64,000 nt of DNA. It comes from Microbulbifer sediminum (GTDB lineage: Bacteria > Pseudomonadota > Gammaproteobacteria > Pseudomonadales > Cellvibrionaceae). Position 1 is the first letter of the stretch, and each line of letters starts with the position of its first letter. A program made the position numbers and the translations under genes. Shown in pieces: positions 7,832 through 39,940 of the stretch. The notes under the pieces are model-generated. The model did no database searches. It was not told the DNA's origin and saw only the letters and a program-made list of their open reading frames with translations. The stretch covers positions 124,001 to 188,000 of the forward strand of contig NZ_JAJSAP010000007.1 of NCBI RefSeq assembly GCF_021729035.1. The letters run 5' to 3'.

Positions 7832-7834
7832 GGG

Positions 7835-10352: not shown

Positions 10353-10388
10353 TGCCGGCGCTGTGCCGATCAGGGCACAGCGCCGGCA
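10353..10388 (-). terminator. Perfect 15-bp hairpin downstream of the GST gene
   Basis: Bases 10353-10367 and 10374-10388 are exact inverted complements (arms begin TGCCGGCGC) around a 6-base loop. It begins 4 bases past the GST stop codon. It lacks a T-tract but is very stable; it probably ends GST transcription or protects the mRNA 3' end. Confidence 0.6.
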
Positions 10389-10391
10389 TGC

Positions 10392-11021: not shown

Positions 11022-11202
11022 GGCCCTCATCCCTGGTGATCCAATTTTTCAGTTTCCAACTTTACCCCAGTGGCGATCCGGTTCCATTGGATCCTTGCCG
11101 TATTGAGGACAGGTTTGCAGCACCGCAGCTAATCCGGCGCCAGGCATCGGCCTCAAGCAAATGGCTAGACTTGTGTGAGAAGAAAACCGGGGCCTGGCCA
11201 AA

Positions 11203-12849
11203 ATGAAGATCGCAAACCATTTCGACAGCAAGTGTTTATCCCTCTTGCTTACCGTCACCCTCATGCTTTCAGTGATAACGAGTTCGGCGATGGCAGCAGT
11301 ACCCACGGGCGAGCGGCAGGACATCGGCACAGTCAGTTTTTCGACCTCCTGCTCAACGTCAGTGCAGACAGACTTCAACCGCGCGGTGGCCCTACTGCAC
11401 CACATGATGTACGTGCAGTCGCAAGAACTCTTTGCCGATATTGCGCGGAGGGACCCGGATTGCGCCATGGCATACTGGGGTGTCGCTATGACAGCCTTCC
11501 ATCCCCTCTGGGCGCCGCCGCCGGCAGAGGCTCTGGCACGTGGTCAGGAGGCTTTGCGCAAAGCCGGTGCGCTCTCTCCGGGTACAGCAAGGGAGAAGGG
11601 ATATATTGATGCCGCCAGTGCTTTTTACCGGGACTGGGACAAGGACCGGCACCGGGAAAACCTTGAGGCCTGGCGCAAAGCCCAACAACAGCTCTTCGAG
11701 CGCTACCCGGATGATGTCGACGCCGGTGCACTGTATGCGCTCTCCCTGGTGGCCACTGCGCCAAAGGGGGACCGGGAATACATGCGCCAGAAAGAAGCGG
11801 GCAAGCTTCTCGAGCGCCTGCGCGTCGAGGCGCCCCGCCACCCGGCCATGTATCACTACCTGATACACGCCTACGACAATCCCGCCCTTGCCGACCGCGC
11901 ACTGGATGTTGCACGAGAGTATGACAAGATCGCCCCCGAAGTGCCGCATGCACTGCACATGCCTTCGCATATTTTTGTACGATTGGGCATCTGGCCCGAC
12001 ACCATTGAGTGGAACAAGCGCTCCGCGGCAGCGGCCAGGCGCCAGCCCGCGGACGGTAAGATCTCGCTGCATTTTTACCATGCACTCGATTACCTGCTCT
12101 ATGCCTACCTGCAGCAGGGACGAGACGATGATGCTAAGGCCACCCTGGCAGAGGTGCGGGCCGCAGCGGTTCCCCAGGATGAATTTGCCTCCGCTTACGG
12201 TATCTCGGCAGCCCGTGCACGCTATCGGCTGGAAAAGCGCGACTGGCAGGGTGCCGCATCCCTTGATCCCCGCTTGCCCGCGGATTTCCCCTGGGATAAC
12301 TACCCGTGGACCGAAGCCATAGTGGAGTTTGCCCGGGGTATCGGCGCCGCTCGCAGTGGTGATACCCCTGCTGCCGTGAGGTCGGCCAAGAGGCTGGCTG
12401 AGCTTCAAGAGCAGACGGCAGCCGCGGGCGAGAAATACTGGGCCCAGCAAGTGGAGGTGCAGCGCCTGGCGGTAGAGGCATGGTCTGCACTATCTGCAGG
12501 CAAGGAGCGTCAAGCGCTGGTGTTGATGCGCAAAGCGGCGAACATGGAAGATTCCATGGACAAACATCCGGTGACACCCGGGCCGGTGCTTCCTGCACGG
12601 GAATTGCTGGGTGATATGCTGCTGGCGTCCGGTAAACCAAAAGAGGCGCTCGAGGCCTACCGAAAAACACTGGAGGTTAACGCCGGGCGGTTCAACAGTC
12701 TCTATGGCGCAGCCAGTGCGGCCGCGGAATCCGGTGATCCCCCCGTGGCGGAAAAATTCTACCGCGAGCTGCTCGAGCAAGCCGGTGAACATGGCGGCAG
12801 CAGGGAGGAGCTTGCCGAGGCACGGAAGTTTGTGGGCAAGCGGCCGTGA
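11203..12849 (+). CDS. Secreted TPR-repeat protein of unknown function
   Basis: The product is 548 residues. Residues 1-31 form a signal peptide ending near SSAMAAVP, so it is exported to the periplasm or beyond. The mature part has several tetratricopeptide-like helical pairs: QELFADIARRDPDCAMAYWG near residue 70, a central block around FVRLGIWPDTIEWN, and a C-terminal pair RELLGDMLLASGKPKEALEA near residue 465. The sequence MYHYLIHAYDNPALADRALD is characteristic of a family of tetratricopeptide proteins seen in many environmental bacteria, whose function I do not know. No enzyme motif was recognised. It stands alone between a divergent GST gene and a convergent patatin gene. Confidence 0.8.
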   Translation: MKIANHFDSKCLSLLLTVTLMLSVITSSAMAAVPTGERQDIGTVSFSTSCSTSVQTDFNRAVALLHHMMYVQSQELFADIARRDPDCAMAYWGVAMTAFHPLWAPPPAEALARGQEALRKAGALSPGTAREKGYIDAASAFYRDWDKDRHRENLEAWRKAQQQLFERYPDDVDAGALYALSLVATAPKGDREYMRQKEAGKLLERLRVEAPRHPAMYHYLIHAYDNPALADRALDVAREYDKIAPEVPHALHMPSHIFVRLGIWPDTIEWNKRSAAAARRQPADGKISLHFYHALDYLLYAYLQQGRDDDAKATLAEVRAAAVPQDEFASAYGISAARARYRLEKRDWQGAASLDPRLPADFPWDNYPWTEAIVEFARGIGAARSGDTPAAVRSAKRLAELQEQTAAAGEKYWAQQVEVQRLAVEAWSALSAGKERQALVLMRKAANMEDSMDKHPVTPGPVLPARELLGDMLLASGKPKEALEAYRKTLEVNAGRFNSLYGAASAAAESGDPPVAEKFYRELLEQAGEHGGSREELAEARKFVGKRP

Positions 12850-12862
12850 CAAGGCACGGCCG
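12841..12862 (+). terminator. Hairpin overlapping the end of the TPR gene
   Basis: CGGCCGTG (12841-12848) and CACGGCCG (12855-12862) make a perfect 8-bp stem that includes the stop codon. No T-run follows, so it is only a candidate terminator. Confidence 0.4.
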
Positions 12863-12959
12863 CTATGTCTGCTGGACCAATTCCCGGGATTACCGAGCCT
12901 GCCAGGGCAGGCCCGGTTATTGCCGTGACAGGGTTGATAACGCTCTGGGGCAGTGCTCG

Positions 12960-13946
12960 TCAGGTTGACGGCACTACATCCTCAATCCAGGTTTTGACGC
13001 GCTCCACTTCCGCCCTGCCTGCTGCGACAGCCTCGGCGGCACGGGAAAACTCCATACTGCCTATTCCACCGACCTTGGGCATAATCATGATGTCCGGGGG
13101 TGACCCCACTAGCCGCGAGCGCTTGTGACGCCGCTCCAGGATCTCCATGGCTGTCGACATGGTCTCCAGCATGCCCGGGGCATAGGGCGCGCCTCTGGTA
13201 AAGCGGTCACCGATCTGGGACAGCTGTTCGCGGCCCTGGGTCAGCAGCTTTTCAAGTGACTTGCCCCCTGTAGCCCCCGCATCGGTTTCCTCCTGGAGAA
13301 CTTCCCCCTCCGGGCTTTCCCCATCGTTCCCGTCACTCGCCAGCGTTTCCACGTCACCCTGTCGGTGTTCCCTCGGAGATGCGCCATCCTCGGTCACATC
13401 GACCGCAATCACACAGGTTGCTCCCATCGCCCGACAGACATCGATCGGCACGGGGTTGACCACAGCCCCGTCGACCAGCCAGCGCCCGGCAACCTGTTTC
13501 GGGGACAGCAACCCGGGAATGGAGCTGGACGCACTCACCGCGTCGCTGAGGTTGCCTTCCTGTAACCAGATTTCCTGGCCGCTGTTCAGGTCAGTTGCCA
13601 CTGCGGTAAAAGGTACAGGAAGATCCTCGATATTCTGGTAGGCGAAGTTCTCGAAGAAGGCCTGGAAGGGTTTCTTGCCGCCGATCAGGCCGCCACTGAA
13701 TGTCCAGTTGATATCCAGCAGGGAGAACACCCGCCAGTTATCCAGCATGTTCACCCACTTCTCAAGTCTATCCAGGCACCCCGCGGCACAGGCGGCCCCG
13801 ACAAACGCTCCCATGGAAGAACCGGCGATCACCTGGGGGCGAATTCCCATCTCTTCCAGCGCACTCAGCACACCGATATGGGCAAAGCCCTTGGCAGCGC
13901 CGCTGCCGAGGGCGATGCCGACGCAGGGCTTCGAAGAATCGGTCAT
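12960..13946 (-). CDS. Patatin-like phospholipase family protein (RssA-like)
   Basis: This is a 328-residue serine hydrolase of the patatin family, expected to act on phospholipid or acyl esters. The oxyanion motif GSGAAKG is at residues 14-20, the nucleophile elbow GSSMG at 42-46 (Ser44), and the catalytic Asp is in VDGAVVNP (Asp159), so the Ser-Asp dyad is intact. From about 185 to 225 there is an acidic, low-complexity insert (GDVETLASDGNDGESPEGE) before a helical C-terminal part. There is no signal peptide. The substrate and role are unknown; it is monocistronic and convergent with the TPR gene. Confidence 0.9.
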   Translation of the reverse strand: MTDSSKPCVGIALGSGAAKGFAHIGVLSALEEMGIRPQVIAGSSMGAFVGAACAAGCLDRLEKWVNMLDNWRVFSLLDINWTFSGGLIGGKKPFQAFFENFAYQNIEDLPVPFTAVATDLNSGQEIWLQEGNLSDAVSASSSIPGLLSPKQVAGRWLVDGAVVNPVPIDVCRAMGATCVIAVDVTEDGASPREHRQGDVETLASDGNDGESPEGEVLQEETDAGATGGKSLEKLLTQGREQLSQIGDRFTRGAPYAPGMLETMSTAMEILERRHKRSRLVGSPPDIMIMPKVGGIGSMEFSRAAEAVAAGRAEVERVKTWIEDVVPST

Positions 13947-14167
13947 TGCGGACTCCTTTAGTCAATTGCATACCACCACGCCAATGCCGGGCAGCGTAAT
14001 AAGTGTCGGGGGAATATATTCTCCATCGTCTGGTCTCCCCAAACAGGTCTTTACAGGCAAGCCGAGTCGTATCACCAAACAACAACCTTTGCTGATTTTT
14101 TCCAAAGGGAAGTCACCGCTTACGAGCCAAGGGGCAGGGCAGCCCCTCGGTTTCGCTGGTGAACCTT

Positions 14168-16291
14168 TTACTGGGAAAGTATGAGGTATTGCCGTGTCTC
14201 TCGGTCCAGCACCGCAATACTACGATTTGGTAAAGCAAGATAGATGGTGCCCGTATCCCGATCGATGGCGGGGAGGAATGTGACATGCTCATTTTCTAAT
14301 TGGGTTAACTTGAGCAGGTCAGTGCGGTCGCCGGTCATTAGGTCAACTTCAACCAGGACGACGTCTGATTTTCCTGTGTCCGGGTTTTTACCAATGTAGT
14401 TTTCCACCAGCAGGAAGCCCGTAGCGGAATCCAGGGCCATTTGTCCCAATTCTATAAAGTCAGGACCCGCGCCGACGCCGTCCCCCGATAGCAGTTGTTT
14501 CCCGCCCGTTTCAAGATCGATGGCGAGTATGCCACCTTCCGCATTCGCCAGATAGGCACGATCATTCGCACTATCTACAACCAGGTCGCTGACGTGTCCC
14601 CAGTATCCCTCTGTCCCATAGCTTGCTGAACACGTGAGTATTTCACGATCGCCGGAAGTGGGGTCAACCCTTAGCAGACAGCCCCCTTGATCGACGACGA
14701 AGCCGGTAGCCAGAAGGGTATTGCGTCGGGAATCGAACGCGATTGCGGTAAAGGATCCGAGCTCCGGGCCGCTGCCGGCTTTGCCGTCGGTTAACTCTTC
14801 CCACACAGCCTGTCCCGGGGATAAAGCCAGTATTGCACTCGGTTGGGTATAACTCCATCTGACGGCAAAAACAGCACCATCGACGGGGTTTACCTCGACG
14901 GACTCCAGAAAGTCCGATGCGGGGGCTGGTTCTGCGGCGGAGCCGCTCAGGAATTTCCGATCGCCGGTATCCCGGTGTATCGCAATCAACTGGCTGTATT
15001 CGTCATATATGTCGTTAATTGCGATCAAGTTGCCAGTGACGCTGTTGTATGCCAGCTCCTTGAGGTAGGTGGGCGAGGGCCCTTGCCCGCGGATAATGCG
15101 ACCTAACTGTTTCCGCTGCCCGGTTGCCTTGTCAATCAGGAAACTGTGACCGGTACTGCAGGAATTTACCAGCACAGAGCTGCCGGTATCAGCGAAGCCA
15201 TAGCGCAGCCAGTCAAAAACCCTGTTTAGCTCGCCGCCGCCCAGCCGGGTAGAAGCCACCTCCCGGTCACCGGTGGCAAGGTTGATTTCAAGTAACCTGT
15301 TGTACTCGTCCCCCACATAGGCCCTTCCCTGGACGAGGTCGACTGCCAGGCCCGCAGCACGGATCAGTTCCGGGCCGCTGCCAACATTTGGGCCAGACAA
15401 TTCCTTGACTGTGCTGGTTGACGGGTCGAGCTCAAGAAGTGCGTCCACTGTTACAAAAAAGAATCTACCGCCGACCACGCGGAAGCCCGGGTTTGCATCA
15501 AGGGGAGGGGTTCCGTCTGCGTATTTCCACCCGCCGATATGGGTTCTGGCCCCTGTCGCGGGATCCACAGCGACAACGTAGGACGCCCACCACTCGAGCA
15601 CATAAATAGTGCCCGTGGCTTCGTCAATAGATATCTGCGGATTGCTGCCGAAAGAGGGGGATTGAGCGGGCGAAACGACAGTGGGCCCATGGAAACCAGA
15701 ATCGTATGAATACAGGATATCGTTCTGGATCAGGAGGAAACGGCCACTGGCTGGATCAAAAGTCGCGCCATCGACATCGTCGAGTTCCACCGGTAACGCT
15801 TGCTCAATTCCGGTTTCGAGATCCAGTGCCGATGGTGGGCTGAACGTGTAGGCTGTATTGGCTGTGGAGTCGTAGGCAACCGGCCCGCAAAACCGGTAAC
15901 TGTCGAAGCGGTCGTATGCATTCACCGTGGTTTCAGCTGCGTTCGAAGTGACGTTTCCGCTGGTGTCGGTAACCACCACCTCAATATTCGTCGCCCCGCC
16001 CGCCTTGAGGCTGACGGGTGCAGTCCAGTTCAAAAAGCCGTCAGTAGTCTCGGCTTCCACACCATTGACGACTACCTTGGCAATTCCAGCGTTATCCGCG
16101 GATGTTCCCCGGATAATCAGGATCTCCTGGTCGCTCCATAAGCCGGGCTTCGGTGGGAATTCTATTTGTGCTGTCGGCGCCTCGGTATCCGCCACGTCCT
16201 CGTTGCCGTTGTCCGAGGACGATCCTCCCCCGCCAGAACAAGCTCCCAATACCAGAATCAGTGAGAATAAGGAGATTCTGTAAAAGTCCAT
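14168..16291 (-). CDS. Lipoprotein with Ig-like domain and beta-propeller-like repeats, function unknown
   Basis: The 707-residue product starts with a lipoprotein signal ending in the lipobox LVLGAC, so Cys is near residue 17 when the ATG at 16291 is used; an upstream start 57 bases away would bury this signal and is rejected. After a Gly/Ser/Asp-rich tether, an Ig-like domain covers roughly 35-125 (APTAQIEFP to VVTDTSGNVTS). The rest is made of repeated units of about 45-60 residues in the style LLEINLATGDREVAS, AIDLETGGKQLLSGDG and VEVDLMTGDRTDLLK, as expected of a beta-propeller. No catalytic motif was seen. It is probably surface or periplasmic and may bind sugar or protein. It has no operon partners. 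Confidence 0.75.
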   Translation of the reverse strand: MDFYRISLFSLILVLGACSGGGGSSSDNGNEDVADTEAPTAQIEFPPKPGLWSDQEILIIRGTSADNAGIAKVVVNGVEAETTDGFLNWTAPVSLKAGGATNIEVVVTDTSGNVTSNAAETTVNAYDRFDSYRFCGPVAYDSTANTAYTFSPPSALDLETGIEQALPVELDDVDGATFDPASGRFLLIQNDILYSYDSGFHGPTVVSPAQSPSFGSNPQISIDEATGTIYVLEWWASYVVAVDPATGARTHIGGWKYADGTPPLDANPGFRVVGGRFFFVTVDALLELDPSTSTVKELSGPNVGSGPELIRAAGLAVDLVQGRAYVGDEYNRLLEINLATGDREVASTRLGGGELNRVFDWLRYGFADTGSSVLVNSCSTGHSFLIDKATGQRKQLGRIIRGQGPSPTYLKELAYNSVTGNLIAINDIYDEYSQLIAIHRDTGDRKFLSGSAAEPAPASDFLESVEVNPVDGAVFAVRWSYTQPSAILALSPGQAVWEELTDGKAGSGPELGSFTAIAFDSRRNTLLATGFVVDQGGCLLRVDPTSGDREILTCSASYGTEGYWGHVSDLVVDSANDRAYLANAEGGILAIDLETGGKQLLSGDGVGAGPDFIELGQMALDSATGFLLVENYIGKNPDTGKSDVVLVEVDLMTGDRTDLLKLTQLENEHVTFLPAIDRDTGTIYLALPNRSIAVLDRETRQYLILSQ

Positions 16292-16398
16292 AGTGGTAGC
16301 CGCCCCCACGGCAGAGTTCCTTAATGTGCCACGTATCCAAGTTACCACAGCGGGGCCCTTGGTTTTGGGAACACGTTACAAGGGCGTTCAGAAGGCAC

Positions 16399-16425
16399 AA
16401 AAAAAGCAGCCGAAGCTGCTTTTTT
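16399..16425 (-). terminator. Rho-independent terminator of the atp operon (UUCG tetraloop)
   Basis: On the minus strand a GCAGC stem, a TTCG loop and a GCTGC stem are flanked by A-run and T-run of about 6-7 bases. This is a strong intrinsic terminator 26 bases after the atpC stop. The A-run on the other side may also let it act bidirectionally. Confidence 0.9.
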
Positions 16426-16450
16426 GCACAGGCTGATCGGTAAGTTGGTT

Positions 16451-16870
16451 TTACTTACCGGCCGCCTTGCGGATGGCCTGCATGGTGCGCAGGCGCGCCT
16501 CGGCCTCGGCCAGCTGGGCGGAGATGCGGGCATAGTCCACCTCGGAGGGCGCCTGGTGCAGGGCGTGGGCCGCTTCCTCGCGGGCCTTCTGCGCGGCTTC
16601 CTCGTCGATTTCCCGCTCGGCGATATCGGCGAGAATGGTGATCATGTTCGGCTGCACCTCGGCGTAACCGCCACTTACGAACAGCACTTCCTCTTCACCA
16701 CCCTGCTTGATGATCCGCACCGGGCCCGGCTTCAACGCCGTAAGCAGCTGGGCGTGACCATAGGAAATTCCCAGTTCGCCCTCGACACCGGTGACGACAA
16801 CCATCTCCACCAGTCCGGAGAACAGGGATTCCTCAGCGCTTACGATATCGCAATGTACAGTCATAGCCAT
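16451..16870 (-). CDS. atpC: ATP synthase F1 epsilon subunit
   Basis: Epsilon is part of the central rotor stalk and inhibits ATP hydrolysis. The protein has 139 residues, normal for the family. The N-terminal beta-sandwich (residues 1-85) contains [19 protein letters not shown] and [14 protein letters not shown]. The C-terminal helical hairpin follows ([16 protein letters not shown] and later [11 protein letters not shown]). The start at 16870 is preceded by GAGG at a 7-base spacing. It is the last gene of the operon, 82 bases after atpD. Confidence 0.97.
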
Positions 16871-16952
16871 AAGGCTACCTCATTCTCTGCAGTTTGCCTT
16901 GCGAATTCCCGCCGCCGTGCCCGGATAGGGCAGGGCGGTGGGGGTTCCGCGC

Positions 16953-18380
<1,428 letters not shown>

Positions 18381-18399
18381 TCAAAATTCGTTCAGCCGC

Positions 18400-19260
18400 T
18401 TAAACCGCTGCGGCGCCGCCCACGATTTCGGACAGCTCCTGGGTAATCGCTGCCTGGCGCGCCTTGTTGTAAACAAGTTGCAGCGCATCGATCAGCTCGC
18501 CGGCGTTGTCGGTGGCGCTCTTCATGGCAATCATGCGCGCCGCCTGCTCGCAGGCCTTGTTTTCGACCACGGCCTGGTACACCTGTGACTCGATGTAGCG
18601 AGCCAGCAGTCCGTCGAGCAGTTCCACCGGCTCCGGCTCGTACAGGTAATCCCAGTTATGCTTGAGCTGGTCGTTATCCTCTTTCGGCAGCGGCAGCAAC
18701 TGTTCCACGCGCGGCTTCTGCGACATGGTGTTGACGAACTCGTTGGACACGAGGAACAGACGGTCGATTTCGCCTTCCGCGAAGCGGTCCATCATGACCT
18801 TTACCGAACCGATCAGCTTGTTCGCCTGCGGGTTGTCACCCACATCGCGCAGGGCCGCCACCACCTTGCCACCGATGGTGTTGAAGAAGCTGGCCGCCTT
18901 GTTGCCCACCGCGCAGATCTCGACGTCGACGCCGCGCTCCGACCAGGCCTGCATATCGCGGATGGCCGCCTTGAACATGTTGATGTTCAGGCCACCGCAG
19001 AGACCGCGGTCAGTGGATACCAGGATAAAACCCACCCGCTTGGCCTCGCGCTCCTGCAGGTAGATATGCTGGTATTCGGCCGAGGCGTTGGCGACGTGGC
19101 CGATCACCGCGCGTATGCGCTGGGCGTAGGGACGCCCCAGAGCCATGCGATCCTGAGCCTTGCGCATCTTACTCGCCGCGACCATTTCCATCGCGGAGGT
19201 AATTTTCTGCGTGCTCTTGATGCTGGCAATTTTTGTGCGTACTTCTTTTCCGCCTGCCAT
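18400..19260 (-). CDS. atpG: ATP synthase F1 gamma subunit
   Basis: Gamma is the rotating central shaft. It is 286 residues. The N-terminal helix [20 protein letters not shown] and the C-terminal helix with [20 protein letters not shown], which form the coiled coil inside the hexamer, are both present, as is the middle Rossmann-like part with [11 protein letters not shown] near residue 85. It lies between atpA (83 bases upstream) and atpD in the canonical order. Confidence 0.98.
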
Positions 19261-19343
19261 AGTGATTTACCTTGTTCGCTGGATTTCTCAGAACCGCAGG
19301 AGCGGGCCCTCACCGGGCCGGCCCCTGCAGGCCTCCAGGGTGC

Positions 19344-20888
<1,545 letters not shown>

Positions 20889-20939
20889 GCTCTGTTCCTC
20901 AAGTTCCCAAATGCCGGAAACGACGTCCGGGAAAGTTGT

Positions 20940-21476
20940 TTAGGAGTTCATCGCCTCGGCGAGTTTGGCCAACCGGCCGCGCACTGTGCCATCGATGACC
21001 GTATCGCCGGCGCGCACGATTGCGCCGCCCAGAAGGCTCTCGTCCACGGAGCCGTGCAGATGCACTTCGCGCCCGAACTTCTTGCTGAGCGCCTGGGTCA
21101 GCTGCTGCGCCTGCGCCTCGCTCAGCGGGCGCGCGGAGACAACTTCAACCTCCAGGGAGGCTTCGGCCTGTGCCTTGAGCTCTTCAAACAGCTCGTGGAT
21201 TTCCGGCAACAGCGGCAGGCGGTGGTTTTCCGCCAGCAGCCGGATAAAGTTCTTGCCGGAGTCACTGAGGTCATCTGAACAGATGGACAGGAATTTTTCT
21301 GCGCGTTGTTCGCTGGTGAGCTGCGGGTTTTCCAGCATCTCACCAACTTTCTCGCTTTGGCTGACCGCGGCCGCCGTCGCCAGCGCAGTACTCCACCCAC
21401 CGAGATCGGAGGCTTCCTGCGCGTAGGCAAACGCCGCTTTGGCATAAGGCCGGGCCAGTGTGCTGAGTTCCGCCAT
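20940..21476 (-). CDS. atpH: ATP synthase F1 delta subunit
   Basis: Delta joins F1 to the peripheral b-stalk. It is 178 residues. The N-terminal helical domain starts MAELSTLARPYAKAAFAYA, the usual OSCP/delta opening, and the C-terminal part has the signature VDESLLGGAIVRAGDTVIDG near residue 140. It starts 12 bases after the atpF stop, as expected in this operon. Confidence 0.98.
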   Translation of the reverse strand: MAELSTLARPYAKAAFAYAQEASDLGGWSTALATAAAVSQSEKVGEMLENPQLTSEQRAEKFLSICSDDLSDSGKNFIRLLAENHRLPLLPEIHELFEELKAQAEASLEVEVVSARPLSEAQAQQLTQALSKKFGREVHLHGSVDESLLGGAIVRAGDTVIDGTVRGRLAKLAEAMNS

Positions 21477-21488
21477 GGGGTTCCTCGC

Positions 21489-21959
21489 TTACAGCTCGGC
21501 TGCCAGTTTGTCGATCAGATCGTCATGCGCCTTGGCATCGATATTAACCGAGAGAATCTTCTCCGCACCGGCCACAGACAGGGCGGCAACGCGGCTGCGT
21601 AGCTGCTCCTTGGCACGGTTCACTTCCTGGTCGATCTCGGCCTTGGCCGCGGCTTTCAGGCGATCCCCTTCCTCGACTGCGGCCTGCTTGGCCTCGTCGA
21701 GGATCTGGTTGGCACGCTTGTTGGCACCTTCGATGATTTCCGCAGCCTGCTCTTTGGCTTCCTTCAGCTGTTCAGCGGCCTTGCGCTGAGCCAGCTCCAG
21801 ATCCTTACCGGCGCGCTCGGCCTCTTCGAGACCGGTGGCGATCTTCTGCTCGCGTTCCTGCATGACGCCGAGCAGGGCAGGCCATACATACTTCCAGCAG
21901 AACCATACGAAGACCAGGAATGTAATCGACTGGCCTATTAGAGTCAGGTTGATATTCAC
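21489..21959 (-). CDS. atpF: ATP synthase Fo b subunit
   Basis: Subunit b forms the dimeric peripheral stalk. It is 156 residues with one N-terminal membrane helix ([20 protein letters not shown]) followed by a long Ala/Glu/Lys-rich amphipathic helix with heptad-like spacing. It is a single atpF as in other gammaproteobacteria. It lies 69 bases after atpE. Confidence 0.98.
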
Positions 21960-22028
21960 ACCGACACCTCTTGCTCTTTGCTCTTTATAAAAAGAACGGG
22001 GGGGTTAAGGGCAATTGGAACGATGGAA

Positions 22029-23281
<1,253 letters not shown>

Positions 23282-23318
23282 TCAGCACTCAATCAATTGA
23301 ATTTGTCTTCTGCGCCGG

Positions 23319-23681
23319 TCAGCGGACCAGACGCGCCACCAACAGCCACTGCAGAATGATGCAGCAGCTGTAGCTGATAAACAGCGCGGCCGCGTCGAGC
23401 GGCCTTACCACGGCAAACACTGCCGCGAACCCCGCCAGGGTCAGGATGAACTTGCCCGTTTCCGCGCGGTAGAACGAAGCTACCACCCGGTCGGCGTCGC
23501 GCGCGCCGCGATGGCGGAAGGCGCGGAAGCCAAAATAGGCATTGGGCAGCGCACACAGCGCGCCACCGATAAAAACCGACAGCGCCGTTACCGGCCGCCC
23601 GTAAAAATGCAATACCGATCCCGCCAGCGATACCAGCACCAGCTGTACCGCAGCGACCAACAACACCGGGGGTCTATACAT
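23319..23681 (-). CDS. atpI: ATP synthase subunit I
   Basis: AtpI is a small membrane protein of 120 residues with four predicted helices, which helps assemble the c-ring and is not essential in E. coli. The start MYRPPVLLVAAVQLVLVSLA and the motif GALCALPNAYFGFRAFRHRG are typical. It is the first gene of the atp operon, about 50 bases downstream of the predicted promoter start. Confidence 0.88.
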   Translation of the reverse strand: MYRPPVLLVAAVQLVLVSLAGSVLHFYGRPVTALSVFIGGALCALPNAYFGFRAFRHRGARDADRVVASFYRAETGKFILTLAGFAAVFAVVRPLDAAALFISYSCCIILQWLLVARLVR

Positions 23682-23714
23682 AGGCGGGACTTGGCCGACC
23701 AGGTTAGCGCTTTC

Positions 23715-23731
23715 CGCCCAAAATTTGGGCG
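23715..23731. promoter_or_regulatory. Inverted repeat at the atp transcription start
   Basis: CGCCCAAA (23715-23722) and TTTGGGCG (23724-23731) are perfect inverted repeats around one base. They lie 5-22 bases downstream of the -10 box, at or just after the expected start site, where a repressor operator or a short 5' hairpin would act. No known binding protein was recognised. Confidence 0.4.
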
Positions 23732-23736
23732 TGCGA

Positions 23737-23766
23737 ATTATAGGAGTAACCCCATTCCCGGTTCAA
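23737..23766 (-). promoter_or_regulatory. Sigma-70-type promoter of the atp operon
   Basis: On the minus strand a -35 box TTGAAC (23761-23766) and a perfect -10 box TATAAT (23737-23742) are separated by 18 bases. It lies 56 bases upstream of the atpI start and is the only clear promoter before the nine-gene operon. Confidence 0.75.
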
Positions 23767-23862
23767 CTGCAAAATCTGGCCAACTTATTTAATTTTCGGC
23801 GTTTTTTCGTTGCAGATTGCCCAGGCAGTGAGTATTCACCAACTTTTATCCCTAAAGGCATT

Positions 23863-23883
23863 GTGCGCCGTTTTGGGGCGCAC
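23863..23883 (-). terminator. Hairpin downstream of parB
   Basis: GTGCGCC (23863-23869) and GGCGCAC (23877-23883) form a 7-bp stem with a 7-base loop, 12 bases past the parB stop. There is no T-tract; candidate terminator of the mnmG-rsmG-parA-parB unit. Confidence 0.45.
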
Positions 23884-23895
23884 GAAACCACCAGA

Positions 23896-24795
23896 TCAAT
23901 CCTCGCGGTACCCCAGGTGGGCGAGGATACCGTCCAGCTCATCGAGGCTGTTGTATTTCAGCACCAGCTTGCCCACACCTTTCTCGTTGTGATCGATATT
24001 GACCGGCACTCCCACCTTTTCCGACAGCCGCTCGCTAAGCCGGCGGATGTTCGGATCCTGCTTCGGCTTGGCCGGCGCGGGATGCTGGGCCTGGTGCACA
24101 ATCCGGCGCACCAGCGCCTCGGTCTGGCGGACCGTCAGGCCCTTGTCCACCACCTGGCGTGCCGCGGCGCGCTGGGCCTCACCCGCCAGCCCCAGCAGGG
24201 TCTTGGCGTGGCCCAGCTCCAGGTCGCCGCGCTCAAGGAAGGTGCGTACATCCTCGGTCAGACTGAGCAGGCGCAACAGGTTGGTGACGGCGGTGCGGGA
24301 CTTGCCCACCGCTTCGGCCACCTGCTGCTGGGTCAGCTCGAATTCGTCCTGCAGTCGCTTCAGGGCCAGCGCTTCCTCGACCGGGTTCAGGTCCTCGCGC
24401 TGGATATTCTCGATCAGCGCCATGGCGATGGCGGCTTCGTCGGGCACGTCACGCACCAGCGCCGGCACCCGGTCCAGCTCAGCCAGCTGGGCGGCCCGCC
24501 AGCGGCGCTCCCCGGCAATAATCTCGTAGGCCTGCTCGCCCACGGGCCGTACCACGATCGGCTGCATGATGCCCTGGGCGCGGATGGAGTCCGCCAGCTC
24601 CTGCAGGGACTCCTGCGGGAAATCGCGGCGCGGCTGGTAGCGGCCGCGCTGCAGGAATTCAATCGGCAGCTCGCGCAGCTCGCCATCGACGGCGTTCTTG
24701 CTCTCACTGCCGGTTGCCATGGCGATGGCCTGGCTGGCCTCGCCACTGATCAGGTGGGACAGGTTCTTGCCCAGCCCCTTGCGCCTGGTGGCCAT
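23896..24795 (-). CDS. parB: Chromosome partitioning protein ParB
   Basis: ParB binds parS, spreads on DNA as a CTP-dependent clamp and helps segregate origins. It has 299 residues. The N-terminal ParB/Spo0J domain contains the CTP-binding boxes RYQPRRDF near residue 55 and GERRWRAA near 98. The helix-turn-helix follows around FELTQQQVAEAVGKSRTAVT near 150. A C-terminal dimerisation domain ends the protein. Two perfect parS sites lie in recF in this window. It starts 17 bases after parA. Confidence 0.97.
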   Translation of the reverse strand: MATRRKGLGKNLSHLISGEASQAIAMATGSESKNAVDGELRELPIEFLQRGRYQPRRDFPQESLQELADSIRAQGIMQPIVVRPVGEQAYEIIAGERRWRAAQLAELDRVPALVRDVPDEAAIAMALIENIQREDLNPVEEALALKRLQDEFELTQQQVAEAVGKSRTAVTNLLRLLSLTEDVRTFLERGDLELGHAKTLLGLAGEAQRAAARQVVDKGLTVRQTEALVRRIVHQAQHPAPAKPKQDPNIRRLSERLSEKVGVPVNIDHNEKGVGKLVLKYNSLDELDGILAHLGYRED

Positions 24796-24812
24796 ATGGT
24801 TCTTACCTCAAG

Positions 24813-25607
24813 TTAAACGGCTTCCGCCACCGGGCGGTTCGGGTTGGTGGCGTGGCGACGGGTCATTTCACCGGCCAGCGCCAGGTAGGCAATCGCTCCC
24901 TTGGAGTGCTTGTCGTAATCCAGTGCCGGCTTGCCGTAACTTGGCGCCTCGGCCAGGCGCACGTTGCGCGGGATACAGGTGCGGTAGAGGCGCTCGCCGA
25001 AATACTCGGACAGCTGCTCGGAAACGTCGCTGGTCAGGCTGTTGCGCGGGTCGTACATGGTGCGCAGGATGCCCTCGATCCTCAACTCCGGGTTGGCGGC
25101 GCGCTGGATCTGGGTGATGGTATCGATCAGGGCTGACAGCCCCTCCAGCGCGTAGTACTCACACTGCATCGGGATCAAAACACCGTTGGCGGCACAGAGC
25201 GCGTTCACCGTAAGCATGTTCAGGGAGGGGGGGCAATCCACCACGATGTAGTCGTAATCCTCCGCGATCGGGCGCAGGGCCCGGCGCAGGCGCGACTCAC
25301 GGCCGTCCATATCCAGCAACTCCACTTCCGCGGCGGAGAGATCGCCGTTGGCCGGCAACAAGTCGAAACCACTCTCGGTCCGGACCACCCCGTCCCGGGC
25401 GGCCGCGTCCCCGGCCAGTACGTCGTAGGAGGAAAGTGATAGCTGGCTCTTGTCCACGCCGCTGCCCATGGTGGCATTACCCTGGGGATCCAGGTCGATC
25501 AGCAGGACCCGGCGACGACTGGCGACAAGGGAGGCGGCCAGGTTGACACAGGTGGTGGTCTTGCCCACACCGCCTTTCTGGTTGGCTACGGCAAATATCT
25601 TGCTCAA
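24813..25607 (-). CDS. parA: Chromosome partitioning ATPase ParA (Soj)
   Basis: ParA is a deviant Walker ATPase that moves ParB-parS complexes. It has 264 residues. The Walker A motif KGGVGKTTT lies at residues 11-19 with the signature Lys, Walker A' is VLLIDLDPQGNATMGSG near 35, and Walker B is YIVVDCPPSLNML near 120. It follows rsmG and precedes parB, the standard order next to the origin. Confidence 0.97.
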   Translation of the reverse strand: MSKIFAVANQKGGVGKTTTCVNLAASLVASRRRVLLIDLDPQGNATMGSGVDKSQLSLSSYDVLAGDAAARDGVVRTESGFDLLPANGDLSAAEVELLDMDGRESRLRRALRPIAEDYDYIVVDCPPSLNMLTVNALCAANGVLIPMQCEYYALEGLSALIDTITQIQRAANPELRIEGILRTMYDPRNSLTSDVSEQLSEYFGERLYRTCIPRNVRLAEAPSYGKPALDYDKHSKGAIAYLALAGEMTRRHATNPNRPVAEAV

Positions 25608-25776
25608 GGTTCTTGTCCTTTATTCTCCCCGGGGACGCCCTCCCTGAAGTCGCCCGGGTCGCACGGCAACGGCCGGCGTCAGCAGGCACGGCCCGATCTG
25701 GGGGCGCGCGCAGGTCTCGGAATTCTGTTATTCAAACTGGTTCTTTTCAGCGCGGGAAAGTCGCCAGGCCGCCGTT

Positions 25777-26409
25777 TCAGTCACGGCGGAGGACGATGAG
25801 GTGGCGATCCGCATCGCAACCCGGTACCGACAGGGGATGCACCTGCTCGACCTTAATCGCTTTTGGGAGCGTGCTCAACTCATCTTCCGGCCACTTGCCT
25901 TTCATAGCGTAAAACCTGCCACCATCAGTTAGCAAGTGCTCACACCAATGCACCATATCGGTCACCGAGGCAAATGCCCGGGAGACCACTCCGGCAAACC
26001 GCCGCTCCGGACGGTAGGCCTCCACCCGGTCGTTGACCACCGTGACATTGGGCAGCGGCAGCTGGCTTGCCACCTGGAACAGGAAACGGGTCTTCTTGCC
26101 GTTGCTGTCGAGCAACGTAATCGGTCGGTCCGGGTACATGATTGCCAGCGGGATGCCAGGCAGGCCACCGCCACTGCCCACGTCGATCAGGGGTGAATCG
26201 GCAGCGCCGCAGAGCTTCACTACACTGAGACTGTCGATGATGTGGCGCTCGAGCATCTGCGCGGGATCACGGACCGCCGACAGGTTGTAGGCGGCATTCC
26301 AGCGCGCGAACAGTGCCAGATACTCCAGCAGCTTGTCCTGCTGCTCCCGGGTCAGATTCAGCCCCATCGATTCCGCGGCCTGGGTGAGGCGCGGGCGGAA
26401 CTCTTCCAT
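25777..26409 (-). CDS. rsmG: 16S rRNA (guanine527-N7)-methyltransferase
   Basis: RsmG methylates G527 of 16S rRNA using S-adenosylmethionine. From the ATG at 26409 it has 210 residues, the family length. The longer open frame reaching back to a TTG at 26505 adds 32 residues without family likeness, though no good ribosome site is seen at 26409 (GGGGAGA is about 20 bases upstream). The SAM motif is DVGSGGGLPGIPLAI near residue 75. It lies directly after mnmG, in the classical mnmG-rsmG-parA-parB order. Confidence 0.93.
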   Translation of the reverse strand: MEEFRPRLTQAAESMGLNLTREQQDKLLEYLALFARWNAAYNLSAVRDPAQMLERHIIDSLSVVKLCGAADSPLIDVGSGGGLPGIPLAIMYPDRPITLLDSNGKKTRFLFQVASQLPLPNVTVVNDRVEAYRPERRFAGVVSRAFASVTDMVHWCEHLLTDGGRFYAMKGKWPEDELSTLPKAIKVEQVHPLSVPGCDADRHLIVLRRD

Positions 26410-26501
26410 TTGCAGAGAAATTGTCGGATCTCCCCTGTTTACCCCGAGGGGCACAACCTCGTAAGCGGGGGCGGGCACCGCCCCCGGGTATTCGCGGCCA
26501 G

Positions 26502-28391
26502 TCAACCGGCCTTTTTGCGGACCAACAGGCCGCGCTTTTTCAACTGGATCAGCAGCAGCGATACCGCCGCCGGTGTCACGCCGGGTATTCGCGATGCCCG
26601 TGCCAGGGTATCGGGGCGGGTCTCCTCGAGCTTCTGCTTTACCTCGCTGGAGAGTCCGGACACCCCACCGTAGTCAAAGTCCGCAGGCAACGGCGTATCT
26701 TCATAGGCCTGCAACCGCTCGATTTCCTCTCGCTGGCGGTCGATGTAACCGGCGTACTTGGCCGAGATTTCCACCTGCTCGGCGACGCGCTCGTCCGCGA
26801 CCGCCTGGCCCTTGAGCCCGGCCACCTCGGCATAGCCCAACTCCGGGCGGCGCAGCAGGTCCATCAGGCTGTATTCCCGCGCCAACGGCTGCGGCAGGCG
26901 CTTCTCCACCGCTTCCGCCTGGGGGGTCTTCGGGTGCACCCAGGTATCGCGCAGCCGCTGGGTTTCCTGCTCGATGGCCTCGCGCTTCTCGCAAAAGGCC
27001 TGCCAGCGCGCATCCGGGACCAGGCCCAGCTCACGGCCGGTCTCGGTCAGGCGCAGGTCGGCATTGTCCTCGCGCAGCATCAGCCGGTACTCGGCGCGGC
27101 TGGTAAACATGCGGTACGGTTCCTTGGTGCCGCTGGTAATCAGGTCGTCCACCAGCACGCCCAGATAGGCCTCGTCGCGGCGCGGGCACCAGGCCTCTCG
27201 GCCACTGGCGCGCAGGGCGGCATTGGCGCCCGCCAACAGCCCCTGGGCGGCGGCCTCCTCGTAGCCGGTGGTGCCGTTGATCTGTCCGGCGAAGAAAAGC
27301 CCCTCGATGAACTTGGTTTCCAGTGACGGCTTCAGGTCGCGCGGATCAAAGAAATCGTACTCGATGGCATAGCCGGGGCGGGTGATATGGGCCCGCTCAA
27401 ACCCGCGGATGGAATGCACCAGTTCCAGCTGCACATCGAAAGGCAGGCTGGTGGAGATGCCGTTGGGGTAGAGCTCATTGGTGGTCAGCCCCTCCGGCTC
27501 CACGAAAATCTGGTGGCTGTCCTTGTCGGCAAAGCGGTGCACCTTGTCCTCGATCGACGGGCAGTAGCGCGGCCCGACGCCCTCGATGACCCCGGAGAAC
27601 ATCGGCGAACGGTCCAGGCCGCCGCGGATCACATCGTGGGTGCGGGTGTTGGTGTGGGTGATCCAGCAACAGGCCTGGCGCGGGTGCTGGGCACGGCTGC
27701 CGAGGTAAGACATCACCGGGGTCGGGGTGTCCCCCCACTGCTCCTCCATCACGGAGAAGTCCACCGAGCGGGCGTCAATGCGCGGCGGGGTTCCGGTTTT
27801 CAGGCGCTCCACCCGGAAGGGCAGGTCCCGCAGGCGCTCGGCGAGGGCAATCGACGGCGGATCACCGGCGCGGCCACCGGAAAGGCTGTCCATGCCGATG
27901 TGGATGCGGCCGCCGAGGAAGGTACCGGCCGTGATCACCACGTTCGTTGCCCGGAATCGCAAGCCGGCGTTCGTGACCACGCCAACCACCCGGTCGCCCT
28001 CGACGATCAGGTCGTCCGCGGCCTGCTGGAAGATCGCCAGGTTGGGCTGTGACTCGAGCACCTCGCGGATGGCACTCCGGTACAGGGCCCGGTCAGCCTG
28101 GGCGCGCGTGGCCCGGACGGCCGGTCCCTTGCGGGCGTTGAGGACCCGGAACTGGATGCCTGCGCGATCGGTGGCTTCTGCCATGGCACCGCCCAGGGCG
28201 TCCACCTCCTTGACCAGGTGGCTCTTGCCAATGCCGCCAATCGCCGGGTTACAGGACATCTGGCCGAGTGTCTCGATGTTGTGTGTCAGCAGCAGTGTGG
28301 ACGCGCCCATGCGCGCCGCGGCGAGGGACGCCTCGGTGCCTGCGTGACCGCCGCCGATCACAATCACATCAAAGTGTTTGGGGTATTCCAT
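26502..28391 (-). CDS. mnmG: tRNA uridine 5-carboxymethylaminomethyl modification enzyme MnmG
   Basis: MnmG (GidA) works with MnmE to install cmnm5 or nm5 groups at the wobble uridine of several tRNAs, using FAD and methylene-tetrahydrofolate. The product has 629 residues from the ATG at 28391, preceded by GAGG; an upstream start 33 bases earlier is rejected. The FAD-binding motif is [13 protein letters not shown] near residue 13, the second GidA signature [11 protein letters not shown] is in the middle, and the C-terminal helical domain binds MnmE and tRNA. Unusually its partner mnmE is also close by, separated only by the candidate origin. Confidence 0.97.
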
Positions 28392-28828
28392 AACCTCGAC
28401 CAGGGGGAGTTGAAAAGGGCGCACATTTTATAGCCAGTGCGGGTTCACAGCAAATCGATCTTTCCCACCTTCGGGGGCTCTCAACGGCATTGTAGGGTCA
28501 GTCCGCCAGGGATAATCCCCAAGCGGGGATGACTTTCTCCAAGTTGCCGATGCCTTTCTCAGAATAATTAAAGTTATACATGTCTATGTAGAGAGTTTGT
28601 TCTGTATTTGTTGTAACTATTGGGGCGCCCGGTTTTCTGTATAAAACTAAAAATGTTCACAAAATCAATCAGTTATATTGGCTGCTAGCCTGACCATAAC
28701 CCGTTTGCCAGAGCAGGGGTAAGCCCGGTACGTCGCTGTGGACAGACGGGATAACTTTTGACGTTTATCGCGGCAGTGGAATTTATGCCCGGGTTCCTCC
28801 GCAGGTTACGGCGGTTTTATCCTCTTTT

Positions 28829-28837
28829 TTATGCACA
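28829..28837 (+). promoter_or_regulatory. DnaA box
   Basis: TTATGCACA matches the DnaA consensus TTATNCACA exactly. It is the best site of the cluster in the mnmG-mnmE gap. Confidence 0.6.
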
Positions 28838-29036
28838 GGGGGCGTTCCGCTTCCGCTGCCTGTGGGTAACAGCTGGTAAAAACTGTCCCAAGCCTGTGAC
28901 TGGAAGGCGGGCTCTGGATAACCCTGTGGTCAGGTGTGCGCAACTTCTGTGTCCAGGCGGTTGATTTCCACTGGGTGAAATCTGGATCCTCCCGGAGTGG
29001 TCACGGTGCGGAAGCCAAAGGCTTGGCGGAAATGAA

Positions 29037-29064
29037 GGGGCCGGCCACTCCCGGAACCGGCCCC
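29037..29064 (-). terminator. Hairpin downstream of mnmE
   Basis: GGGGCCGG (29037-29044) and CCGGCCCC (29057-29064) form a perfect 8-bp stem, 19 bases past the mnmE stop. The T-run is poor. It would insulate the candidate origin from mnmE transcription. Confidence 0.55.
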
Positions 29065-29082
29065 GAGTAGGCGACAGGTGGG

Positions 29083-30459
29083 TTATTTGCCGATACAGAA
29101 GCTGCCAAATATCTTGCCGAGTAGTTCGTCCGCGGTCATGGCGCCGGTGATCTCGCCGAGTGCCTGCTGGGCCTGGCGCAGGTCCTCGGCCAGCAGCTCT
29201 CCGGCACCACTGGAATGCAACTGGCTTGCCCCGGCTTCGATAAAGGCGCGGGCGCGGGCAAGGGCGTCCAGGTGGCGGCGGCGGGCGCTGAAATTTCCCT
29301 CTGCCGCGCCGCTGAATCCCATGCACTGTTTCAGGTGCTGGCGGAGGGCATCGAGGCCGGCACCGGTTTTCGCGCTAATGGCGATAACCGGGACGCCGTC
29401 GGTATGAGCCTGCAGTCCGGCGCTGTAGTCGGTCAGGTCGATCTTGTTCAAGACGAGGGTCAGCTTGTCCGGGTCTGGCAGGCGGGCGGTAAACTCGGGC
29501 CAGACAGCGTCCGGGTCGAGCGAGTGTGCCTGCTCTGCGTCGACCATCAGGAGTACGCGGTCCGCATGGCTGATCTCCTCCCAGGCCCGCTGGATCCCGA
29601 TCTGCTCAACCTGGTCGGGTGAGTCACGCAGGCCGGCGGTGTCGGCGAACTGCAGTGGCATGCCATCGATATCCACATACTCCCGCAGGATATCCCGGGT
29701 GGTCCCGGCGATATCGGTGACGATGGCCGCGTCCCGGCCGGCCAGGGCGTTGAGCAGGCTCGACTTACCGGCATTCGGACGGCCGGCGATGGCCACCTGC
29801 ATGCCCTCGCGCATGATGCTGCCCTGACGCGCCTGGACTTCGACCGATCCCAGGTGCTGTAAAAGTTGTTCAAGGTCCGCTGCAACCTTCCCGTCGGCAA
29901 GGAAATCGATTTCTTCTTCCGGAAAATCGATTGATGCTTCGACGTAAATACGTAAATTCGTCAAAGATTGGGATAAGTCTTCGATTTTTTCGGAGAAAGC
30001 GCCTTGCAGAGAGCGCATAGCGTTGCGTGCCGCCTGGGTGCTGCCGGCCTCGATCAGGTCCGCGATGGCCTCGGCCTGGGCCAGGTCAATCTTGTCATTG
30101 AGGAAAGCGCGCTCGGAAAACTCCCCCGGTCGAGCCTGCCGCGCACCCTCGCTGATGCAGGCCTCCAGGAGCTGGTCGAGAATGACCGGGCCGCCATGCC
30201 CCTGCAGTTCCACCACATCCTCACCGGTAAAGGAATGGGGGCCGGGAAAGAAGAGGGCGATGCCCTGGTCCAGGAGCTCCCCCTGATGGCGAAAATCCCG
30301 GTAATGGGCCCGGCGTGGTTGCAAGGGGGAGTCACCGGCGATAACGGCGGCAATATCTGCGGCCCGGGGTCCGGACAGGCGGATCACGCCGATACCGCCG
30401 CGTCCTGGCGCCGTGGCAACTGCTGCAATGGTATCCCGGTTGAGATTAAGCTCTGACAT
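29083..30459 (-). CDS. mnmE: tRNA uridine-5-carboxymethylaminomethyl synthesis GTPase MnmE
   Basis: MnmE (TrmE) is the GTPase partner of MnmG in wobble-uridine modification. It has 458 residues. The N-terminal domain binds folate ([20 protein letters not shown] near residue 70). The inserted G domain has [12 protein letters not shown] (G1, near 222), DTAGLRD (G3) and LNKIDL (G4). The C-terminus ends CIGK, whose Cys is the conserved catalytic residue. It follows yidC by about 100 bases with a strong hairpin between. Confidence 0.97.
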
Positions 30460-32896: not shown

Positions 32897-33031
32897 TTAT
32901 GCAGACAGGACCTTGCGACCCTTGGCGCGGCGACGGGCCAGTACCTTGCGACCGTTTTTGGTGGCCATGCGGGCACGGAAGCCGTGGTTGCGCTTGCGCT
33001 TCAAGTTGCTGGGCTGGAATGTACGTTTCAT
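32897..33031 (-). CDS. rpmH: 50S ribosomal protein L34
   Basis: L34 is a 44-residue, very basic protein of the large ribosomal subunit. The translation starts [20 protein letters not shown] and ends [10 protein letters not shown], matching the universal L34 pattern; it was read directly from the sequence as it is too short for usual gene-length cut-offs. It leads the rpmH-rnpA-yidD-yidC unit and has a good promoter at 33140-33168. Confidence 0.97.
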
Positions 33032-33302: not shown

Positions 33303-33311
33303 TGTGGATAA
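33303..33311 (-). promoter_or_regulatory. DnaA box (perfect consensus)
   Basis: TGTGGATAA is the exact complement of TTATCCACA, the strongest DnaA site. It lies about 130 bases upstream of the dnaA -10 box. Confidence 0.8.
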
Positions 33312-33409: not shown

Positions 33410-33418
33410 TGTGGATAA
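33410..33418 (-). promoter_or_regulatory. DnaA box overlapping the dnaA promoter
   Basis: This second perfect TGTGGATAA covers the -35 region expected for the dnaA promoter, whose -10 box is 18 bases downstream. This is the usual arrangement for DnaA autorepression. Confidence 0.8.
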
Positions 33419-33441: not shown

Positions 33442-33543
33442 CCGGGGTCTTTCGCGCGGCCCCGCAGGTCCCCTGAGAGGGGCCGGTAGCTTTGCCGTGA
33501 CACTCTTTATTTATTTTCATTTCCTGGGTTTGTGGGGGGTTCT

Positions 33544-35115
33544 TTGTCTGAGTCCGTATGGAAGCAGTGCGCGGCCTGTTTGCAGGACGAATTGCCGTCA
33601 CAGCAGTTCAATACCTGGATACGGCCCCTGCGGGTAACGTCCGCGACTGCCGGCGAATTGCGCCTGCAGGCTCCGAACCGGTTCGTGCTCGACTGGGTAA
33701 ACGGCAAGTTCCTCAACCGTATCCGCGAGCTGGTGGCCCATTACAGCGGCGGTGAGCCGCTGGAGATCGTGCTCGAATCTGCCGCTCGGGGCACGGCCCC
33801 ACGGTTTTCGCGGGGCCGTCGCGCGGCAGCAGATACTGGCCGTGCCCCGGCGCCCCAGGGGCACGGGCGTCCGGTGGCACCGGTTTCGGAGGAGGCCGCA
33901 GCGCCCCATGCGGTTGCCGCGGAGGAGGCCACCGCCGAGCAGGTCAGCAGTGGTGAGTTAGCGCTCACTGATGTCCGGGGCCCGGCGCGTCCAGCGCCTG
34001 CAGCGCCCTCTCCGACGCCGGTGGGGGGTAACCCTACCGGGCGAGCGGCGTCTGAGGGCGGTCGGAATGTAGAGGTTGAAGGGGCGATCAAGCACGGCAG
34101 CTCCCTCAATCGTAATTTTACCTTCACGTCTTTTGTCGAGGGGAAGTCGAACCAGCTGGGCCTGGCGGCGGCGCAACAGATTGCGGACAATCCAGGCGGT
34201 GCCTACAACCCCCTCTTTATTTATGGTGGTGTGGGGCTGGGCAAGACCCACCTGATGCACGCGGTGGGTAATGCATTGCTGGAGCGCAACCCCAACGCCA
34301 AAGTGGTTTACCTGCACTCGGAGCGATTTGTGGCCGATATGGTTAAAGCGCTCCAGTTGAACGCGATCAGTGATTTCAAGCGATACTATCGGTCAGTTGA
34401 TGCTCTCCTGATTGACGATATCCAGTTTTTTGCCGGCAAGGAGCGCTCCCAGGAAGAGTTCTTCCATACCTTCAATGCCCTGCTCGAGGGTGGCCAGCAG
34501 ATCATCCTGACCTGTGATCGCTACCCGAAGGAGATCGACGGCCTCGAGGAGCGACTAAAGTCCCGCTTCGGATGGGGGCTGACGGTTGCGGTTGAGCCCC
34601 CGGAACTTGAGACGCGGGTGGCTATCCTGATGAAAAAGGCGGAGCAGGTAGGGGTGGACCTGCCTCATGATTCCGCATTCTTTATCGCGCAGCGTATTCG
34701 CAGCAATGTACGGGAGCTGGAAGGGGCGCTGCGGCGGGTTGTTGCCAACGCCCAGTTCACAGGTCGCCCGATCGATGACGTGCTGGTGCGCGAAGCATTG
34801 AAGGACCTGCTGGCGCTGCAGGACCGGCTGGTAAGTATCGATAATATCCAGCGTGTGGTGGCTGAGTACTACAAGATCAAGGTGGCGGACCTGCTGTCGA
34901 AGCGCCGCAGCCGCTCGGTGGCCCGGCCCCGCCAGGTTGCGATGTCCCTGGCCAAGGAGCTGACCAACCACAGCCTGCCCGAGATTGGTGACGCATTTGG
35001 TGGTCGTGATCACACGACGGTGCTACACGCGTGCCGTAAAATCCGGGAGCTACAGGAATCCGATGCAGATATTCGCGAGGACGTGAAGCTGCTGACTCGC
35101 TCGCTGACTACCTGA
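33544..35115 (+). CDS. dnaA: Chromosomal replication initiator protein DnaA
   Basis: DnaA binds DnaA boxes and opens oriC. I chose a TTG start at 33544 (SESVWKQC follows; GGGGGG lies 4 bases upstream), giving 523 residues; an in-frame GTG at 33532 adds four residues and is the alternative. Domain I is residues 1-80, domain II is an unusually Ala/Pro-rich linker of about 100 residues, domain III is AAA+ with Walker [11 protein letters not shown] and Walker [10 protein letters not shown], and domain IV ends with the DNA-binding signature [13 protein letters not shown]. It leads the dnaA-dnaN-recF-gyrB group. Confidence 0.98.

Positions 35116-36393: not shown

Positions 36394-39940
<3,547 letters not shown>

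Follow-up and report, generated by a model that had tools for sequence, protein, structure and literature searches.

A likely chromosomal replication origin upstream of mnmG in Microbulbifer sediminum

Introduction

Because ori1 of Vibrio cholerae is reported in the gap between gidA and mioC (PMC6284228), a predicted Yersinia pestis origin is placed between the same two genes (PMC10225481), sectors of the Pseudoalteromonas chromosome are described as beginning at gidA as the origin (PMC8496264), and gidA is listed as an origin indicator gene (PMC2275245, PMC2099444), a chromosomal origin (oriC) linked to mnmG, also called gidA, is already a known kind. Within the E. coli oriC, an IHF site is described as acting between R1 and R5 (PMC8407004), and the Vibrio origin is reported to be under Dam/SeqA control (PMC2865523). 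In contrast, the oriC of Pseudomonas putida is reported between rpmH and dnaA (PMC3056050).

A literature search combining Microbulbifer and oriC found no description of its origin, although predictions in DoriC and BOriS DB may include it. A study of a Coxiella burnetii autonomous replication sequence reportedly concerned the neighbourhood of gidA, and Yee and Smith in 1990 and Jiang in 2006 are said to have studied Pseudomonas origins. Here, we analysed 64,000 nucleotides (64 kb; hereafter the window) of Microbulbifer sediminum, which sit on a 247-kb contig of a draft assembly of 15 contigs, and compared the gap between mnmG and mnmE with the systems described above.

Results

A DnaA box cluster beside unstable DNA in the mnmG-mnmE gap

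Family models matched parB, rsmG, mnmG, mnmE, yidC, rnpA, dnaA and dnaN above cut-off in the window, and a ParA-like protein only below the cut-offs; rpmH was identified by eye as a 44-residue frame (32897-33031). The genes mnmG (26502-28391; TIGR00136) and mnmE (thdF/trmE; 29083-30459; NF003661, TIGR00450) lie on the minus strand and dnaA (33532-35115; TIGR00362) on the plus strand. The MnmE protein is 85% identical to that of Microbulbifer marinus, the closest named one, and together with 47 other genomes the window genome forms a set of 48 Microbulbifer genomes. Two perfect parS palindromes (TGTTCCACGTGGAACA; 36803-36818 and 37448-37463, plus strand) fall in what we take to be the recF-gyrB stretch, its genes being named from their position.

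The proposed oriC is the intergenic region 28392-29082, whose 691 bases run from the mnmG ATG (28391, minus strand) to the mnmE stop (29083), and it stands out by box enrichment, conservation and a nearby skew switch. The 64 kb were scanned in 691-base segments, in steps of 50 bases, for 9-mers with at most two mismatches to the DnaA box TTATCCACA. Seven such boxes start in the gap, at 28513, 28636, 28737, 28817, 28829 (TTATGCACA), 28861 and 28913, three of them with at most one mismatch. A count of seven was reached solely by segments overlapping the gap, and the best segment elsewhere held five. With position 5 left free, the gap contains four boxes at no more than one mismatch, compared to 0.39 in dinucleotide shuffles, and none of 100 shuffles reached four; boxes are thus clustered beyond chance, as in a DnaA-dependent chromosomal oriC. 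The initial annotation had counted five boxes between 28636 and 28921: the cluster and its TTATGCACA member at 28829 were recovered, although six boxes, not five, lie there at up to two mismatches.

The boxes adjoin an AT-rich block (28559-28680) that composition and stability mark as a candidate DNA unwinding element. The 36 G or C previously counted in 28561-28680 were found again exactly, and no other 100 bases in the window are as AT-rich as 28561-28660 (68%, in steps of 10). By nearest-neighbour energy, only one 120-bp locus in the 247-kb contig is less stable than this block, which ranks third for lengths of 50 and 100 bp. Low-stability AT-rich DNA thus lies next to the boxes, as predicted for an oriC.

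Conservation across the genus

An alignment to the right of mnmG gave 46 rows, representing 45 of the 48 genomes (G007, G044 and G054 were excluded; L004 and L206 are one contig with identical gaps, and L002 and L003 stand for G012 and G022). Counted over the first 691 bp of each gap, or the entire gap when shorter, the rows hold 220 boxes compared to 30.9 in shuffles (sd 5.7; largest of 100, 45), counts that are not independent events because the rows share kinship. In every row, 2-9 boxes lie no further than 720 bp from mnmG. The blocks conserved in the genus are a promoter-like stretch, the AT-rich block, a weak R1-like place and the boxes at 28737, 28829 and 28913.

Closest to mnmG, the promoter-like block (28417-28433) reads CTATAAAATGTGCGCCC on the minus strand, with most columns of the genus alignment at 90% or more, and may act as the mnmG promoter. 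Within the AT-rich block, a DnaA-trio-like tract of repeated NAN (28585-28622, minus strand) reads toward mnmG. Basal unwinding is described as depending on a box followed, no more than 16 bp to its 3' side, by at least three NAN trinucleotides in phase (PMC8287927). Runs of at least three occur in 46/46 rows, although shuffles already average 4.56 and runs were scored without the box spacer. The 46-row mean of 6.07 exceeds the largest of 200 shuffle means (5.20), whereas the run of the window itself is 4, about the shuffle mean and no longer than chance.

Adjoining the AT-rich block, the weak R1-like box TTATACAGA (28636-28644, minus strand) keeps a TTATAC core in 32/46 rows. Its use as a working box outside a few species is doubtful, since only 7/46 rows come within two mismatches of TTATCCACA at this place. 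The IHF-consensus site AATCAATCAGTTA (28663-28675, plus strand) is the sole match to WATCARNNNNTTR in the window, a single match that is not improbable given a chance expectation of 0.43 in 64 kb for the stricter form; across the genus, an IHF-like site occupies the aligned place in 18/46 rows compared to 0.3 in shuffles. Further from mnmG, boxes with at most two mismatches were found in 33/46 rows for CTGTCCACA (28737-28745, minus strand), in 15 for the weak TTATCCTCT (28817-28825, plus strand), in 45 for TTATGCACA (28829-28837, plus strand), in 11 at the aligned place of TTACCCACA (28861-28869, minus strand) and in 40 for TTATCCAGA (28913-28921, minus strand). The TTATGCACA box lies 193 bp from the R1-like box, and in 30/46 rows the R1-like place and a plus-strand box are 192-196 bp apart, a spacing figure that has no control.

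The array follows mnmG rather than mnmE. In 16/46 rows, the distance between the two genes is 1.4-15.8 kb, and in every one of these wide-gap rows (above 1.2 kb) the 720 bp next to mnmG contain 4-8 boxes. In the 800 bp beside mnmE, 13 of them have no box and three have one. The box array therefore belongs to mnmG, not to mnmE.

Varied genes enter between the array and mnmE, at about 3464-19290 in locus L149 (G005) and in 15 other Microbulbifer rows. Ten frames from five wide-gap loci were tested. They include MFS transporters in L004 and L205, a two-component pair and a DUF4397 protein in L197, a ChrR-like cupin in L002, and a histidine kinase, two flavoprotein-type oxidoreductases and a YHYH protein in G005. 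The confirmed frames closest to mnmG have predicted starts at 494 (L002), 651 (L197), 662 (L004) and 821 bp (L205); with 223 residues, the matching frame of L178 is shorter than that of L002, whose true start may be further out.

GC skew switches on the mnmG side

The initial annotation had expected the skew minimum within 28.4-29.1 kb. This was not observed: the raw cumulative minimum falls within mnmG at 27243, with the gap 1.15 kb and dnaA 6.3 kb to its right. Such a minimum lies 1.1-1.6 kb inside mnmG in our contig, G018 and G005. As a control, 200 kb around the E. coli oriC placed the raw minimum at 3925597, also inside mnmG and 147 bp from oriC.

The hand counts of G and C in rsmG, mnmG, mnmE and rnpA that had pointed to a switch of bias at the gap, and not at dnaA, were all four exact on recount. 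Fourfold-degenerate sites were tried as a cleaner measure of skew and rejected, showing no switch here in our contig or in G018; because their skew has the same sign on both sides of the gap, codon preference seems to dominate it. In G005, these sites place the switch at 309.5-315 kb, with the mnmG start inside this interval and mnmE and dnaA outside. A step model with classes for gene strand and codon position took their place. With lnL differences that are too large, since the fits treat bases as independent, the mnmG start was favored over the dnaA start in all seven contigs, by 6.7 (our contig), 8.6 (G018), 33.3 (G005), 9.5 (G014), 5.1 (G041), 8.1 (G052) and 9.0 (G040). The preference for mnmG over dnaA was thus upheld, whereas the best point never fell in the gap itself. 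It lies left of the mnmG start by 1.1-5.8 kb in five contigs, 28 kb in G041 and 65 kb in G052, and the mnmG start is no more than 3 lnL from it in 5/7 contigs. For our contig, the 3-lnL interval (12250-29250 in window coordinates) takes in most of the gap, leaves dnaA out and is far wider than the gap. In G005, where dnaA is 20 kb from the gap, the best point is 1.2 kb inside mnmG.

That the skew minima and best switch points of all seven contigs lie left of the mnmG start would suit a true origin somewhere on that side, the boxes then being a DnaA-controlled promoter or titration sites, and a conserved promoter-like block does adjoin mnmG. However, the raw minimum of E. coli is likewise inside mnmG even though its oriC is outside, no comparable box cluster was found elsewhere in the 64 kb, and the AT-rich block and spacing would be unexpected for a plain promoter. 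We consider this reading highly improbable.

Skew was also compared between genes of the same strand, as the difference between mnmE plus yidC and mnmG plus rsmG over all sites. It was +0.028 in Microbulbifer (sd 0.035, n=46) and -0.011 in Pseudomonas (sd 0.020, n=26, including L062, a metagenome-assembled genome titled Paucimonas), the ranges of the two genera overlapping. Vibrio/Photobacterium (+0.093, n=2) and Marinomonas (+0.058, n=5) gave positive values and Stutzerimonas -0.006 (n=3); the positive value of Halopseudomonas (+0.036, n=2) contradicts the prediction from a dnaA-side origin there.

The dnaA side as a competing site

Upstream of dnaA, two perfect TTATCCACA boxes lie on the minus strand, at 33303-33311 and, 107 bp from the first, at 33410-33418. 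Among the 41 rows that could be compared (L180, L186, L188, L190 and L210 lack dnaA), 39 have such a perfect pair, spaced by 106-109 bp in 38 of them; the pair probably serves dnaA autoregulation. An IHF-like site is present in the dnaA gap of 32/41 rows, 150-191 bp from dnaA in many of them, and so does not single out the mnmG gap. As a discriminator between the sites, IHF was rejected, strict sites being commoner in the dnaA gap (30/41) than in the mnmG gap (17/46).

These features make the rpmH-dnaA region a rival candidate for the origin, the mnmG array then being either a relic or an additional site that is silent. The conserved pair about 107 bp apart, the IHF-like sites, fairly unstable DNA (11th among the 120-bp loci of the contig) and a gene order shared with Pseudomonas, whose oriC is reported there (PMC3056050), all speak for it. 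However, the array is longer on the mnmG side in most rows and, by skew only, the dnaA start fits worse by 5.1-33.3 lnL in 7/7 contigs, the largest deficit being that of G005, where the two sites are 20 kb apart. An origin on the dnaA side of Microbulbifer thus appears unlikely, and the mnmG-mnmE gap remains our preferred site.

Comparison with the origins of E. coli and Vibrio

The E. coli-like plan proposed earlier, with the AT-rich part on the mnmG side, was supported by the order of elements. Outward from mnmG come the AT-rich block, the trio-like tract, the R1-like minus-strand place, the IHF-like site and the further boxes, so that the Microbulbifer gap lies upstream of mnmG with its predicted unwinding block on the mnmG side. 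The E. coli oriC (mnmG-mioC) similarly lies beside the mnmG start and has an AT-rich block on the mnmG side and an adjoining minus-strand R1-type box; its IHF site may have a counterpart in the IHF-like site of the window. Its minus-strand R1 is 168 bp from the mnmG start, with plus-strand boxes at 274 and 348 bp; the names R1, R2 and R4 are used for these boxes. A plus-strand box follows R1 at 180 bp in E. coli and at about 193 bp in the window.

Several differences were also found. The E. coli origin is flanked by mioC, and mioC is also reported next to ori1 of V. cholerae (PMC6284228), whereas mnmE directly adjoins the gap of the window, with no mioC there. An origin of the E. coli/Vibrio type would be expected to have a strong R1 box next to its unwinding DNA, whereas the window box TTATACAGA is weak. 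The 700 bp to the right of mnmG contain only two GATC sites in the window (0-7 in the genus) compared to 20 in E. coli. Over the wider mnmG region of L001, 22 GATC sites were counted against 15.9 expected, which is no clear excess, as 12/200 shuffles reach it. No SeqA (PF03925) match was found in the 48 Microbulbifer genomes, while the E. coli control matched; re-initiation in Microbulbifer may be limited by other means than SeqA. A search of our genome for DciA (PF05258) gave no match, and since none of the seven matching controls (out of 14) is a gammaproteobacterium, no inference can be drawn on DciA as helicase operator.

On the Vibrio side, the Vibrio salinus and Photobacterium loci L068 and L074 share the order of mnmG, mnmE and dnaA and have boxes upstream of mnmG, which in L068 and L074 are stronger (3-4 perfect boxes) than in Microbulbifer.

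Paired arrays in Pseudomonadaceae

The gene order from parB to dnaN is identical in Microbulbifer and Pseudomonas, and box clusters occur at both mnmG and dnaA in both genera. Pseudomonas loci have 3-8 boxes on the dnaA side, 1-6 of them perfect; in Microbulbifer, this side holds the conserved pair, and the skew switches on the mnmG side. Given the oriC reported at rpmH-dnaA in P. putida (PMC3056050), the initial suggestion of a choice differing from Pseudomonas within a syntenic region was supported. Because Pseudomonas loci also have a box array upstream of mnmG, the data support a difference in which site is used rather than in which site exists.

The arrays that precede mnmG and dnaA in Pseudomonadaceae are in register: of 31 loci, 30 were usable, and 27 of these share at least three boxes in register, compared to 1/30 with one array reversed. 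Similarity between the two arrays was detected by blastn in 11/30 loci. In the Halopseudomonas loci L012 and L064, for example, the boxes of the two arrays agree in strand and in their spacings of 100, 18 and 62 bp. Among 13 loci of other genera, two had an in-register match, compared to one with reversal. These patterns suggest that origin elements may have been duplicated in Pseudomonadaceae, with a lineage-specific choice afterwards.

In Porticoccus locus L025 (4953-13410), mnmG and dnaA enclose the rnpA-yidC-mnmE block in inverted orientation. A box cluster lies at either end; the one toward mnmG has three perfect boxes and the one toward dnaA has one.

The paired arrays of Pseudomonadaceae, together with the conservation of each cluster in Microbulbifer and a study that reportedly concerns two putative P. 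aeruginosa origins, raise a further explanation, namely, that the mnmG and dnaA clusters work jointly, either as parts of a single split origin or as a pair of alternative origins. The Microbulbifer clusters do not correspond, however: no in-register match was found in 41 rows, 40 of which share only a trivial single box, and mnmG and dnaA lie anywhere from about 5 to 20 kb apart. Joint use therefore seems to us exceedingly improbable in this genus.

Discussion

Clustered boxes, adjacent unstable DNA, conservation in the genus and a skew switch on the mnmG side all point to the mnmG-mnmE gap, which is very probably the chromosomal oriC of this Microbulbifer. In this reading, DnaA would bind the boxes at 28737-28921 and, less tightly, the R1-like box at 28636, while a bend induced by IHF at 28663 may join the box groups. 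A DnaA oligomer could then extend leftward along a single strand of the AT-rich DNA at 28559-28680 and open this block. The helicase would load at the opened block and two forks depart, the rightward one copying the mnmE-yidC-rnpA-rpmH block.

As for the history of the region, we tentatively envisage an ancestor with two origin elements, perhaps arising by duplication, that flanked the 5-kb mnmE-yidC-rnpA-rpmH block, one of which was later used in each lineage. This scenario is possible, if rather doubtful. Under it, Pseudomonas would use the dnaA side, and Microbulbifer, Vibrio and enterics the mnmG side, with Pseudomonadaceae keeping both arrays in register.

These results provide a likely origin for a genus without a described one in the literature searched, and place an mnmG-linked origin within a gene order where Pseudomonas uses the dnaA side. 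They also present an E. coli-like origin plan in a genus without detectable SeqA. The site next to the origin takes in varied genes, while the first ~500 bp beside mnmG remain intact, and the two candidate sites are set apart by a natural experiment in the genome whose mnmG and mnmE lie 15.8 kb from each other. Taken together, the Microbulbifer locus and the in-register arrays of Pseudomonadaceae make origin relocation testable by coverage data in named genera.
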